Both the position numbers and the translations under genes were made by a program. 64,000 nucleotides of DNA from Variovorax paradoxus B4 (lineage in GTDB: Bacteria; Pseudomonadota; Gammaproteobacteria; Burkholderiales; Burkholderiaceae_C), in the NCBI RefSeq assembly GCF_000463015.1, contig NC_022247.1, positions 4,836,001-4,900,000 of the forward strand. The letters are read 5' to 3'. Within the stretch, counting starts at the first letter, position 1; each line of letters opens with the position of its first letter. Under the pieces are notes generated by a model. It was not told the origin of the DNA. It worked only from the letters and a program-made list of their open reading frames with translations, and did not search any database. Shown in pieces: positions 41,449-44,798 of this stretch.

Positions 41449-41730
41449 TTACGCCCCGCTGCAGCGTGACATACGTCGCAGTGTGTGCGACACCGATTCC
41501 GCGTGGGCCGCAGCGGCCTCCACGGGCAGGCTGCAGTCCACCGCTTTTCTTGCCGCGACCGGGGTCGCCTCCTGCTTCGGCAAGCCCTGGGCCAGCGCCA
41601 GCGCAACGTTGGCGCACAGCAACATGCAAAGCAGCCATGCGCAGAGCAGCTGCAGCCAGCCCAACCACCACCTGCGCTGCGGCGCGGCGCGGCGTTGATA
41701 GGGCAGAGACGGATGAACGTTCAGTTTCAT
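41449..41730 (-). CDS. Small single-pass membrane protein of the adhesin operon
   Basis: The 93-residue protein has a basic N terminus followed by a hydrophobic, cysteine-containing segment (WWLGWLQLLCAWLLCMLLCAN, written only in part) that is either a membrane anchor or an uncleaved signal. The remaining about 45 residues have two cysteines (DCSL and RCSG). The start overlaps the stop of the MurF-like fusion gene (ATGA). I do not recognise a family; position suggests an accessory to secretion. Confidence 0.6.
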   Translation of the reverse strand: MKLNVHPSLPYQRRAAPQRRWWLGWLQLLCAWLLCMLLCANVALALAQGLPKQEATPVAARKAVDCSLPVEAAAAHAESVSHTLRRMSRCSGA

Positions 41731-44700
41731 GGCAATGCTTTCAAAACCCGGGCCAGCCTGGACAGGCCAATACCGGCGGAACTCTTGGCCAGCACCCAGT
41801 CGCCCGGCTGCAGCAGACCGCCCAGCGCGGTCGACAGATCGGACACATCGACGAACCAGTGCGACCGGACCTTGGTGCGGATGCGCGCATGCAGCGCCCG
41901 CATCAGCGGGCCGCACAGCAGCACGCGGTCGGGCTGGGATGCCAGCAGCTCGGGTTCGAGGTCGAGGTGGTGCCGCTGCGCGGCGGGGCCGAGCTCCTGC
42001 ATGTCGCCGAGGATCGCCACGCGCCGTGCCGGCTCGCAGGGCGCCTGCGACAGCAGTTCGAGCGCAGCGCGCATCGAGCTTGGATTGGCGTCGTAGGTCT
42101 CGTCGATCAGCTTGAAGCTGCCCCCGCCGATATGGATGGTGTGCAGCGCACCGCGCCCGCCCGGCGGCTCGAAGTGCGCGAAGGGCTCGACCGCGGCGGC
42201 CAGCTTCAGGCGCATCGCCTGCAGGGCCGCCAGCGCGGCCACGGCGCTCACGCCCATGTGGCGCCCCGGCGCGTTGAGGCGAAGCTGGAACGGCTCGCCG
42301 AGCACCTGCGCCTGCACCTCGCCGTGGTCGAACGCGAGCAGCCGCACGTCGGCGTCCTTGTGCTCGCCATAGGTCACGATCTGGAGCTGGTGCGCCATGG
42401 CGGCTTCGGCGAAGGTCGCGAACTCAGGAAGGTCGCGGTTCAGAACCGCGCTGTCGCCGGGCGCCATGCCCTCGAAGATGCGGCTGTCCATGCGCGCGGC
42501 GGCCTCCGAAGGCCCGCGGTGCTTTTGCGAAGCGGCCGAAAGCCCCGTCACCACGGCCAGCATCGGCCGCACCAGCTGCGTCGAAGCCAGCATGTGCGGC
42601 GAGCCCATCTCCAGCACCCAGTAGGCCGCGTGCCGCGGCATGCAGGTCAGGTTCCAGGCCATGCCCGAAGGCAGGCTGACGTTGCCTTCGGGCCGGCCGA
42701 CTTCACCCCAGACGGCCAGGGCGTCGGCCAGCATCGCGGCCACGGTGCTGCCGGCCGTGCCGCTGCCCAGCACGCCGCAGACGCGCCCCGTGAACTCGGT
42801 GCGCGCATGCGCGCCCAGCGCAAGCACGGCCTGCAGCACGTCGGGCACCTGGAGCACGGGAACCCGCTTGTCGAGATGCGGTGCGGGATCGGTGCACAGC
42901 ACGGCGGCCGCGGGCTGCAGCACGCCCTTGAGCGCAACCGCGGCCAGCGGCGTTTTCGAAGGCCGCGTCTGGTGCTCGAACACCACGCGGCCCTTGCGCA
43001 GGAAAGAGCGCTGCGTCACGCCGCTGGCGCGCCAGCCGTCTTCCGGGCGCACCACCCATTCGCCGCCGGTCACCCGCGCCATTTCGCTCGCGGTCCAGGC
43101 CGCGCCGTCGTCTCTCGCGCTGCCGGTGCCGGGCACCGCCGGACGCTCCAGCAGGTAGCGTCGATAGGCCGCGAAGCCCGACACATACTGCGCCACGTCG
43201 TCGATGCGCACCCGGAACGCGTGGTGCCGGATGAAGAAGGAGCCGACGATGGTGGAGGGCCGGCGAAAGTACATCGCCATCTCGGGCCAGAAGAAGCCGT
43301 TCTGCAGGTAGTGGGCGCGGTACTCCAGCGCGCGGTAGAACTTCTCGGTGTCGAGCTCGTCGAGCAGGTGCCGCATGGCGGGCGTGGCCTCGAGCCGCTG
43401 CAGCATCTGCTGGGCCGCGAGCATGAGTTCGAGCAGCGTCGGGAAGGTGGTCTTGCGGTCGAGCACGAAGTCCAGGTACCCGGCCACGTTCTGCAGGCCG
43501 AAGCGAAAGTACTTTTCCTGCGGACTCCAGCGCGTGAGTTCGTTGACGCAGCAGCTCAGCCAGTGGTCGTGCGCCTGCCAGTGCTGGCTTGCAATGAAGT
43601 GGTCGAAGGCCTTCTCGACCACGGCGAGCCATCGTGCATCGCGCGTGAGGCCGTACAGGCGCATGAGGCCGTAGGCGGCCTCGCCGTCGTAGTAGATGAC
43701 GCGCGAAGCCTGCTTGACGCGCAGGTCGCCGGCATGGAGCACGTGGCTGAAGCTGCCGGTGGCGGCATCCTGCAGCGATGCGATGCCCAGCGCCAGCTTC
43801 TCCAGCAGCGGCAGCCAGTCGCGCGTGTCCGTCGCCTCGCAGTACTTCACCAGGGCCAGCACGCAGGCGGCATTGCCGCCCAGCTTGATCTCTTCGCCGG
43901 TGTCGACGAGGAAAGCGAGCTCGGTGCCGTCGGCGAGCGTGTAGCTGCGAATGAGCGTGTTCGCGAGATGGTCGAGCGCGCGGTCGATGGCCAAGCGCAG
44001 CTTGTCGTCGCGCATGAGCTCCCACGCCTCGATCATGGCGCACAGCACGCTCGCGTGGCGCATCGCGTCGTAGGTGGGAATACGGCGGTCGAAGCACGGA
44101 AAGTAGCCGTACACGAACAGCCCGTCGTCCTGCACCTGGCGCGCGAGGTACGACGCGCCGCTGCGCACCAGGTCGAGCGCCGACTGCGGAGTGAGCGCCG
44201 GCGCCTGGCGCCGCCCGGCATCGAGCCCCGTGCCCACGAGCTTGTGCACGACGCAGTCGGCCTGGCAAAAGACGCCCACCGTCGCGAGCAGGTAGACCCG
44301 CTGGTCGGCCGGCAGCTCGAGCGTGAGCGCGCGTGCGAAGCGCGCCTGGCCATAGGCCTCGAAGTTGCGTGCATTCACCACCGCATGCGCGATGGTCGAA
44401 TCACCGCTCAGCATGGCGTTGGCGTTGAGCTCCTGCTCGGTGAACGCGGTCTCGAAGTCCTGGTCGAAGGCCAGGCCGAGGCGGAAATAGTTGCGCTTGA
44501 CGCCGGCGAGCTGGGCCTTGAACTGCGCCCAGTCCATCGGGCTCGCGCCCTCGACCCAGTCGATGCGCAGCCATGGCGAGACGATGCCGCAGTCGCGCAC
44601 CCAGCGCTCCACGGCCTCGGCGCCTTCGTGCCACGCAGTTTCGAAATCGGCCGCGCGCGCGTGCACCATGTGCGCGCGCTGCGACCCGTCGCTCACCGAG

Positions 44701-44798
44701 AAGAAAAGCGTAAAGGCCGGATAAGGCGCCGGCAGCGCCGCACACACCGAGACCAGGCGCTCGTGGCAGGCATGGAGCTGGTCGGAGAAGGACATCAT
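41727..44798 (-). CDS. 1023-aa fusion: alpha/alpha-barrel-like region plus MurF-like domain
   Basis: Three parts are visible. Residues 1-200 I do not recognise. About 205-560 is helical with aromatic repeats (VIYYDGEAAYGLMRLYG near 369; DGLFVYGYFPCFDRRIPTYDAMRHAS), like six-hairpin glycosidases and epimerases. About 570-1023 is MurF-like: TASEMARVTGGEW, ETYDANPSSMRAALELL (near 902), ILGDMQELG (near 930) and VLAKSSAGIG. Its P-loop reads GSGTAGST (near 677), with Ser where the ATP-binding Lys should be, and the carbamoylated-lysine position reads Asp in ARMDSRIF (near 769). It lies in the adhesin operon, not with other mur genes. It may be a pseudo-ligase or may modify the exported protein; the function is unknown. 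Confidence 0.8.
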   Translation of the reverse strand: MMSFSDQLHACHERLVSVCAALPAPYPAFTLFFSVSDGSQRAHMVHARAADFETAWHEGAEAVERWVRDCGIVSPWLRIDWVEGASPMDWAQFKAQLAGVKRNYFRLGLAFDQDFETAFTEQELNANAMLSGDSTIAHAVVNARNFEAYGQARFARALTLELPADQRVYLLATVGVFCQADCVVHKLVGTGLDAGRRQAPALTPQSALDLVRSGASYLARQVQDDGLFVYGYFPCFDRRIPTYDAMRHASVLCAMIEAWELMRDDKLRLAIDRALDHLANTLIRSYTLADGTELAFLVDTGEEIKLGGNAACVLALVKYCEATDTRDWLPLLEKLALGIASLQDAATGSFSHVLHAGDLRVKQASRVIYYDGEAAYGLMRLYGLTRDARWLAVVEKAFDHFIASQHWQAHDHWLSCCVNELTRWSPQEKYFRFGLQNVAGYLDFVLDRKTTFPTLLELMLAAQQMLQRLEATPAMRHLLDELDTEKFYRALEYRAHYLQNGFFWPEMAMYFRRPSTIVGSFFIRHHAFRVRIDDVAQYVSGFAAYRRYLLERPAVPGTGSARDDGAAWTASEMARVTGGEWVVRPEDGWRASGVTQRSFLRKGRVVFEHQTRPSKTPLAAVALKGVLQPAAAVLCTDPAPHLDKRVPVLQVPDVLQAVLALGAHARTEFTGRVCGVLGSGTAGSTVAAMLADALAVWGEVGRPEGNVSLPSGMAWNLTCMPRHAAYWVLEMGSPHMLASTQLVRPMLAVVTGLSAASQKHRGPSEAAARMDSRIFEGMAPGDSAVLNRDLPEFATFAEAAMAHQLQIVTYGEHKDADVRLLAFDHGEVQAQVLGEPFQLRLNAPGRHMGVSAVAALAALQAMRLKLAAAVEPFAHFEPPGGRGALHTIHIGGGSFKLIDETYDANPSSMRAALELLSQAPCEPARRVAILGDMQELGPAAQRHHLDLEPELLASQPDRVLLCGPLMRALHARIRTKVRSHWFVDVSDLSTALGGLLQPGDWVLAKSSAGIGLSRLARVLKALP

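Follow-up and report, generated by a model that had tools for sequence, protein, structure and literature searches.

The window analysed here, a stretch of 64,000 nucleotides from Variovorax paradoxus B4 (contig NC_022247.1, positions 4,836,001 to 4,900,000), contains an adhesin locus with a type I secretion system (T1SS), and within it a gene whose product joins a weakly predicted AMMECR1-like domain and a predicted (alpha/alpha)6 barrel to a degenerate MurF-like ligase. The explanation that we favour, and hold to be moderately probable, is that the family to which this fusion belongs tailors the aspartate-X (Asp-X) repeats of adhesins, and that the window copy is a pseudo-enzyme, retained to assist adhesin export without catalysis of its own. 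It draws on observations of the fusion, of its predicted folds and lost motifs, of the selection acting on it and of an association across genomes. Before export, while still in the cytoplasm, surface adhesins would have their Asp-X dipeptide repeats tailored by the ancestral family, whose constant part would be the AMMECR1-like domain together with the (alpha/alpha)6 barrel. The nature of the addition would depend on a variable partner (a Mur ligase, CapA plus Mur, ATP-grasp, GT4 or GT2, or no partner within the protein itself). The window clade has a destroyed Mur active site and a barrel that lacks near-universal residues, and the protein is nevertheless maintained; its most likely function now is to accompany the Asp-Ala adhesin to the T1SS without catalysis, be it as a docking factor, as a chaperone or as a scaffold that binds the substrate. 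The fusion gene and its parts are the following:

41727..44798, minus strand: fusion gene, 1023 residues, AMMECR1-like domain plus (alpha/alpha)6 barrel plus degenerate MurF-like ligase
44202..44798, minus strand: residues 1-199, AMMECR1-like predicted fold, weak match
43131..44201, minus strand: residues 200-556, predicted (alpha/alpha)6 barrel, cellobiose 2-epimerase-like (AGE superfamily)
42201..42797, minus strand: Mur ATPase domain (D2), residues 668-866 (boundaries ours), with P-loop, His and Lys positions destroyed
42744..42767, minus strand: former P-loop GSGTAGST, residues 678-685
42474..42497, minus strand: former carbamoyl-lysine segment ARMDSRIF, residues 768-775, with Asp at the lysine position
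41730..42200, minus strand: Mur domain 3 (D3), residues 867-1023 (boundaries ours), with the lowest ratio of nonsynonymous to synonymous substitution rates (dN/dS) of the parts tested

Pfam matches above cut-off are Mur_ligase_M (PF08245, residues 681-858, 50 bits) and Mur_ligase_C (PF02875, residues 896-1007, 52 bits), residues 1-560 have no Pfam match, and the top NCBIfam models are those of MurF, all under their cut-offs (PRK14093, 240 bits for a cut-off of 544; TIGR01143, 177.9 for 288.6). A first-pass annotation of this DNA had described a 1023-residue protein in which an alpha/alpha-barrel-like region precedes a MurF-like domain with the P-loop lysine replaced, Asp at the carbamoylated-lysine position, and YDANPSSM (902-909) and LGDMQELG (930-937) kept. 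The open reading frame (ORF) and the Pfam and NCBIfam matches bear out the fusion, residues 200-556 are predicted to form the (alpha/alpha)6 barrel of the AGE/cellobiose 2-epimerase fold, and each of the motifs and replacements is present. The likeness to the epimerases is one of predicted fold, with 10-14% identity in the top rows, and no epimerase activity is claimed. To MurF the fusion is homologous along residues 630-1019; it differs by the lost P-loop, His and Lys, the sub-cut-off scores and the fused barrel, and a separate MurF exists in the genome. The gene taken as this MurF on gene order and 30% identity (L012:9582-11009; L and G numbers designate our loci and genomes) has an intact GKTT P-loop and, at the position of the carbamoylated lysine of E. 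coli MurF, an Asn, so the Asp of the fusion says little by itself. The motif set as a whole is no product of chance, since it recurs across the 120 best of 1421 homologues, nearly all of the organism-named ones being Variovorax: none has GxxGK[TS], 118 have YDANPSS and 119 have GDMQELG.

A separate observation concerns residues 448-517 of the fusion (43248-43457), which resemble residues 107-175 of MltG/YceG without gaps. Similarity to YceG/MltG is found in 13 of 22 family members at E<=1, with a best value of 6e-6 (NCBIfam) and an E of 0.017 for PDB 2r1f; the resemblance is possibly due to chance.

The loss of catalytic lysines noted by the first-pass annotation holds for the window genus and close relatives; the P-loop is intact in 56 of the 74 aligned fusions (three rows duplicate others). 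An intact barrel-plus-Mur locus is found, for example, in Halomonas campaniensis. The 18 fusions that have lost the P-loop comprise ten from the genus of the window (its own included), six Pseudacidovorax rows, one from Xenophilus and a frameshifted one from a further genus of the family. The barrel was scored at 40 near-invariant positions; these were chosen from conserved columns, and therefore only the contrast between clades counts. No departure is seen in 194 of 236 sequences, 4-13 departures occur in 10 members of the window clade, and the window barrel has six, so that it falls short of the residue set of the family. The two catalytic parts appear in different states in related loci: the barrel is intact and the Mur domain dead in Pseudacidovorax and Xenophilus, the P-loop and lysine are kept and the barrel is dead in L056, and two loci of the same type (L049 and L148) encode proteins of 569 and 572 residues that have no Mur part and an intact or nearly intact barrel. 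The window clade and its neighbours provide a natural series that runs from an intact catalytic part through a dead one to its deletion.

In order to read selection along the gene, dN/dS was computed pairwise with the NG86 method for nine loci of the genus Variovorax (36 pairs), the test covering the fusion and the five neighbouring genes named below. Mur domain 3 has a value of 0.03, and the rest of the fusion one of 0.19-0.26 (D2, 0.24; barrel, 0.23); the N-terminal 60 residues score low as well (0.06). The neighbours, taken as whole genes, give 0.16 (ABC transporter), 0.17 (HlyD), 0.26 (TolC), 0.28 (OmpA) and 0.12 (sigma-54 activator). In Pseudacidovorax, where there are few differences, the values are 0.04 for D3, 0.23 for D2 and 0.06 for the barrel, and in three intact lineages the barrel is lowest (0.06-0.08), with D3 at 0.11-0.23. 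Judged from these substitution patterns, selection keeps Mur domain 3 after the loss of the ATPase site. Domain 3 of Mur ligases binds the incoming amino acid, and in the window copy it may have been retained as a binding module. An overlapping antisense gene was considered as the cause of the domain-3 constraint and is unlikely, because dS is 0.64 there versus 0.35-0.47 elsewhere in the gene.

The window copy might alternatively still be an enzyme with changed chemistry, its barrel active with altered residues or its Mur part binding nucleotide in another mode. A full-length open match to the fusion in 26 of 61 genomes of the genus (three more have it in pieces or cut), dN/dS well under 1 in every region and the retention of YDANPSS and GDMQELG would all agree with such an enzyme; against them stand a former P-loop that is hypervariable and carries insertions of about 25 residues in two genomes, and the replacements N244D and H537Q and the loss of Y416 in 10 of 10 window-clade loci, which leave this alternative unlikely in our view. 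Another possibility is that the fusion is decaying toward loss and that domain 3 is a temporary remnant, as could be read from the two loci already devoid of the Mur part and from the majority of genus genomes with no end-to-end match. A dN/dS of about 0.03, under that of all five neighbouring genes tested, is not expected of a decaying remnant, and we give decay rather little credence. The scaffold fate, which the first-pass annotation had offered as one of several, is made the more likely one by motif loss and the selection pattern, and we favour a pseudo-enzyme that probably has no activity of its own.

The case that the wider family acts on Asp-X repeats comes in part from its distribution. 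A contig search returned 503 stretches with a relative, of which the best 80 gave 79 loci (L069-L147). The barrel unit was found as a separate protein and in fusions with a MurF-like ligase, CapA (PGA_cap) plus Mur, CapA without Mur, an ATP-grasp domain of the YheC/D kind, GT4 or GT2, and current annotations of the family read 'Mur ligase', 'poly(glycerol-phosphate) alpha-glucosyltransferase' or 'hypothetical'. Neighbours were mapped in 109 loci with reference proteins from several T1SS loci, after removal of six duplicates and two paralogues of the window's own genome; the set keeps both L107 and L108, identical stretches of one genome, and counts close relatives separately. Homologues of the fusion type are not mostly away from T1SS genes, as would have spoken against the first-pass annotation: ABC and HlyD genes are both present at 48 of 72 barrel-plus-Mur loci and at 59 of 109 barrel loci overall, many of the contigs being short. 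The count of loci with any T1SS gene (56 of 72) was set aside since it includes unrelated ABC importers, e.g., in L113, L122, L128 and L136. The deeper link is nonetheless to adhesins with Asp-X repeats and not to T1SS as such, because the barrel adjoins T1SS adhesins in Proteobacteria and also surface adhesins in Listeria, Enterococcus and Staphylococcus.

Among 56 adhesin ORFs near a barrel, 45 contain an alternating Asp-X run of at least 10 residues, the longest measuring 1340 residues, and 10 of the 11 run-free ORFs start at a contig or locus edge. The ORFs came from three sources, namely homology to the window adhesin, existing annotation and a filter that selects large acidic ORFs, and two row pairs are duplicates; the set is therefore not blind to Asp content, because of the acidic filter. 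A scan of whole loci in all frames found a (D[ASTN])8+ run in 69 of 123 distinct barrel loci, and none in four control stretches of one genome (84 kb in total). The reciprocal test used the Asp-Ala run of the window as protein query (E<=1e-7) in genomes in which the barrel is sporadic, with 10 of 250 family genomes and 15 of 398 phylum genomes having it (one of the 15 weak). In the family, 9 genomes have barrel and run, 1 the barrel only, 6 the run only and 234 neither (Fisher test, 5e-12), i.e., the run occurs in 9 of 10 barrel genomes versus 6 of 240 others; in the phylum the corresponding numbers are 8, 7, 8 and 375 (5e-9). Without the genus of the window the values become 2e-8 (family) and 9e-7 (phylum). 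The six run-only family genomes have weaker matches (E 9e-11 to 6e-8), and two barrel genomes, G016 and G022, are equally weak.

Two side observations concern such repeats elsewhere. The window's own genome encodes on its other contig a second, orphan adhesin with an Asp-Ala run and LLGGD repeats (L169:7489-10824, C1:729489-732824), with neither secretion genes nor a barrel seen within the 20 kb fetched. On an E. coli plasmid (L158:1-4995), a hypothetical protein is annotated on the minus strand opposite a plus-strand Asp-Ser run of about 770 repeats, and the plus-strand reading is likely a mis-annotated adhesin.

The Gram-positive relatives extend the association to a second export route. In a plasmid collection 54 records match the barrel, including 15 from Staphylococcus, 6 from Enterococcus and 2 from Listeria; the barrel unit of the window has 36.5% identity over 490 residues with an S. 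aureus plasmid barrel and 42.9% over 448 residues with one of Listeria. Eight Firmicutes records were opened. Six of them have an annotated surface adhesin (LPXTG, SdrD-B-like, SdrF, Rib/alpha-like or 'adhesive domain') immediately upstream of the barrel, and every one of these adhesins contains an Asp-Ala or Asp-Ser run; the other two have no gene annotated upstream of the barrel. In S. simulans a separate Mur ligase of 686 residues with the P-loop GSMGKS lies next to the barrel, and in the S. epidermidis sdrF locus a convergent glycosyltransferase lies beside it, as it does in the pls-gtfC-gtfD locus of S. aureus COL.

GtfC (SACOL0051, AAW38700) is a 538-residue protein encoded directly downstream of pls; CAZy does not predict it to be a glycosyltransferase, and its relatives include proteins of S. 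aureus C75S (92% identity) and S. epidermidis (69%) (PMC5230774). Full glycosylation of Pls requires GtfC and GtfD: with the COL genes GtfD alone gives weak glycosylation, and with those of strain 1061 neither is dispensable. N-acetylhexosamines are attached to Ser in the SD repeats, and biofilm formation rises when Pls is glycosylated (PMC5230774). The staphylococcal barrels of our set have 538 or 544 residues, and the barrel on the S. aureus plasmid is matched by a 538-residue relative at 92% and by S. epidermidis relatives at 69%; by length, gene order and loosely matching identity figures, GtfC very likely belongs to the barrel family. Like the barrel unit of the window it adjoins a repeat adhesin, as a 538-residue protein very probably of the barrel type. 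It differs in being a separate gene with no Mur domain, beside an LPXTG adhesin and a convergent glycosyltransferase and with the sugar placed on Ser, whereas the window copy is fused, lies in a T1SS locus with Asp-Ala repeats and has degenerate sites.

Other nearest published systems are SdgA/SdgB, BapA and Lmo1799. SdgA and SdgB modify the Asp-Ser dipeptide repeats of adhesins, as we propose for the barrel family, but have a GT-B fold with DUF1975, and the cited passages mention no barrel or ligase (PMC8561734, PMC3794999). BapA of Paracoccus denitrificans, exported by the T1SS BapBCD, has 891 Asp-Ala repeats and is required for biofilm; it migrates high on SDS-PAGE, for which the authors leave modification open, and no tailoring gene is mentioned in the passages cited (PMC5588039). 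Acinetobacter BAP-like proteins have alternating Ser-Asp tracts (PMC4647330) and Lmo1799 has 226 Ala-Asp repeats (PMC8687577); the passages seen of PMC12153261 and PMC12472024 mention no tailoring gene. Biofilm adhesins of Gram-negative and Gram-positive bacteria alike contain long runs of Asp-Ala or Asp-Ser. The literature search found no paper linking 'Mur ligase' with 'type I secretion' or 'biofilm-associated protein', so that the statement that no system of this composition is described stands for the fusion in the literature searched, and gives way for its elements, GtfC of S. aureus and BapA of Paracoccus being published. The earlier suggestion that the enzyme modifies the acidic Asp-X protein finds support at the level of the family, in the genome association and the published GtfC relative, but for the window copy a scaffold is likelier.

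Since the only side-chain groups that (Asp-Ala)n offers for chemistry are Asp carboxylates, which Mur and ATP-grasp ligases activate, side-chain amides are proposed for the ligase versions. We tentatively suggest that intact Mur or ATP-grasp partners couple an amine or amino acid to the Asp carboxylates of (Asp-Ala)n and that glycosyltransferases decorate Ser, with Mur domain 3 serving as a binding module in the pseudo-enzyme of the window; as a whole this chemical scheme is doubtful. In cyanophycin synthetase (CphA), a Mur-like domain makes side-chain amides. CphA and the poly-gamma-glutamate enzymes CapB/CapA have a Mur-like or CapA-type domain acting on acidic poly-amino acids, and CapA plus Mur is also an architecture of the barrel family; the backbone is enzyme-made in the former, whereas the proposed substrate of the latter is a ribosomal Asp-X run. 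If true, the ligase reading would amount to a 'templated cyanophycin' on an exported adhesin with ribosomally made (Asp-Ala)n repeats.

A comparison of partners with repeat types, made post hoc, is consistent with such a division. Of 25 intact-Mur loci, 23 have runs with a Ser share of 0-0.11 (exceptions L054, 0.30, and L105, 1.0); the share is 0.71-0.99 in four loci with a glycosyltransferase partner (L061, L158, L167, L118), a small group in which L061 and L158 are close relatives with 81.5% DNA identity (Mann-Whitney p 0.001). For the intact-Mur class the P-loops of the split loci L054 and L109 were checked. The comparison left out CapA-Mur loci (0-0.04, five loci), two loci with a Mur of the CapA-linked type (L101, 1.0; L100, 0.22), L097 (0.38), barrel-only loci, S. 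lugdunensis (0.70), S. simulans (0.16), L056 (0.98) and the 12 loci with a degenerate Mur, of which ten have a share of 0-0.02 and the others 0.91 and 0.95. A simple rule of partner and repeat is contradicted by L101, whose Mur is of the CapA-linked type and whose repeats are Asp-Ser, and by eight barrel-only loci with little or no Ser (0-0.12). The Asp-X run has a median of about 86 residues in 12 degenerate-Mur loci and of 405 in 15 intact ones, which is only a hint because the degenerate loci form one clade. This test was made without barrel-only (L049, L068, L086, L111, L148, L149), CapA-Mur (L048, L084, L106), GT4 (L061), ATP-grasp (L065, L081), split or mixed (L054, L056), A. baumannii (L163) and Firmicutes rows, and without the intact-Mur loci whose adhesin ORF runs off a contig or locus edge, L080, L082, L083, L090, L093, L107 and L108.

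Several points weigh against the reading that we favour. Motif loss does not by itself prove a protein inactive, some barrels outside the window clade have decayed as well (L056, 24 departures; L064, 15; L068, 4), and the dN/dS values come from related loci with dS varying from 0.35 to 0.64 across regions and set domains against whole neighbouring genes. A complete A. baumannii adhesin adjoining a barrel (L163) has no Asp-X run, 54 of 123 barrel loci have no (D[ASTN])8+ run in the fetched DNA, many of them cut by contig ends, and neither the CapA-Mur paralogues of Variovorax nor the nucleotidyltransferase-linked barrels have an adjoining adhesin in the DNA fetched. The membership of GtfC is based on length, gene order and loose identity figures; its effect, in the passages cited, is glycosylation of Ser, and GtfD alone glycosylates weakly with the genes of one strain. 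Modification of Asp-Ala repeats is so far a proposal. We nevertheless consider that the family probably acts on the repeats in Proteobacteria, as the barrel module tracks Asp-X repeats across phyla, with two export routes and swappable ligase or transferase partners. The association makes modification of the repeats directly testable by mass spectrometry, points to a little-studied modification of biofilm proteins and suggests a function for the family.

The remaining genes of the window locus are the following:

45460..48582, minus strand: adhesin, 1040-residue ORF (start possibly internal), with an Asp-Ala run and Leu-Leu-Gly-Gly-Asp repeats
47647..47892, minus strand: (Asp-Ala)n run in mixed codons, adhesin residues 231-312
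44877..45380, minus strand: OmpA/Pal-like lipoprotein, 167 residues (Pfam OmpA, 85.8 bits; TIGR02802, 126.1 bits)
41449..41730, minus strand: small ORF of 93 residues with a single hydrophobic stretch (RRWWLGWLQLLCAWLLCMLLCANVALALA)
39524..41368, minus strand: type I secretion ABC transporter, 614 residues (Pfam and NCBIfam)
38169..39527, minus strand: HlyD-type adaptor, TTG start according to the gene caller (TIGR01843, 332.6 bits)
36619..38172, minus strand: TolC-family outer membrane protein (Pfam OEP, 114.3 bits)
35158..36591, plus strand: sigma-54 activator (Pfam), also found at the edges of related loci

In the 7.15-Mb genome (two contigs), whose closest named fusion homologues are those of Variovorax, the order on the minus strand is adhesin, lipoprotein, fusion, 93-residue ORF, ABC, HlyD and TolC, with the sigma-54 activator at the edge. 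The presence of ABC, HlyD and TolC genes by a large adhesin identifies a T1SS adhesin operon of the BapA/LapA kind, and the fusion gene has the Asp-Ala adhesin as a neighbour in it. The lipoprotein, ABC, HlyD, TolC and Asp-Ala protein are the neighbours that the first-pass annotation had listed, and a Mur-ligase relative with no catalytic residues does lie inside a type I secretion adhesin locus. The coupling to secretion genes by start/stop overlaps applies to ABC/HlyD and HlyD/TolC; the fusion itself overlaps the 93-residue ORF through ATGA at its 3' end, and ABC starts 358 bp past its end. The frame containing the 93-residue ORF has no match in Pfam or NCBIfam; a similar ORF (RRWWLGWLQLLCAWVLCMLLCANIAL) is present in most of the Variovorax-genus loci inspected, and in the same gap of a Pseudacidovorax locus (L047) no ORF of at least 40 residues was found. 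The window adhesin matches no Pfam family, hence neither BapA_N nor another Pfam adhesin domain; BapA_N is present in the adhesin of L130 (103 bits).

This layout also bears on the idea that the fusion tethers the adhesin to peptidoglycan. It would fit MurF ancestry and the OmpA/Pal-like neighbour; yet this lipoprotein already provides a domain of the peptidoglycan-binding type and is the better candidate, no signal peptide is seen by eye in the fusion (no predictor was run), elsewhere the barrel is fused to enzymes that one would expect to be cytosolic, and it also adjoins LPXTG adhesins, which sortase would anchor. We regard tethering by the fusion, proposed in the first-pass annotation, as unsupported and highly improbable.

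Some further genes were seen around barrels. A predicted secreted protein with HExxH (L066:6087-7160 and similar; HELFHLYQYG...LEGMARW) is near the barrel in 30 of 109 loci and has no Pfam match in the three members tested; it could be an adhesin-processing protease. A barrel paralogue (L009:9510-16839) is clustered with a pair of nucleotidyltransferase-like proteins (in one of them the C-terminal part is kinase-like) and with HAD-like, HExxH and GT-like proteins (names given by eye), a similar set occurring in L050 and L143. Two further paralogues, both in the window's own genome, lie at L010:8287-9957 and L011:9089-10433, one apparently of the CapA-Mur type without C-terminal domains and the other broken near a transposase-like gene. 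Within the window, the adhesin locus adjoins a Tad/Flp pilus-like cluster on the plus strand (23236-35139), with Pfam matches to Tad/Tad_C at 33130-35139 only and the remainder assigned by eye.

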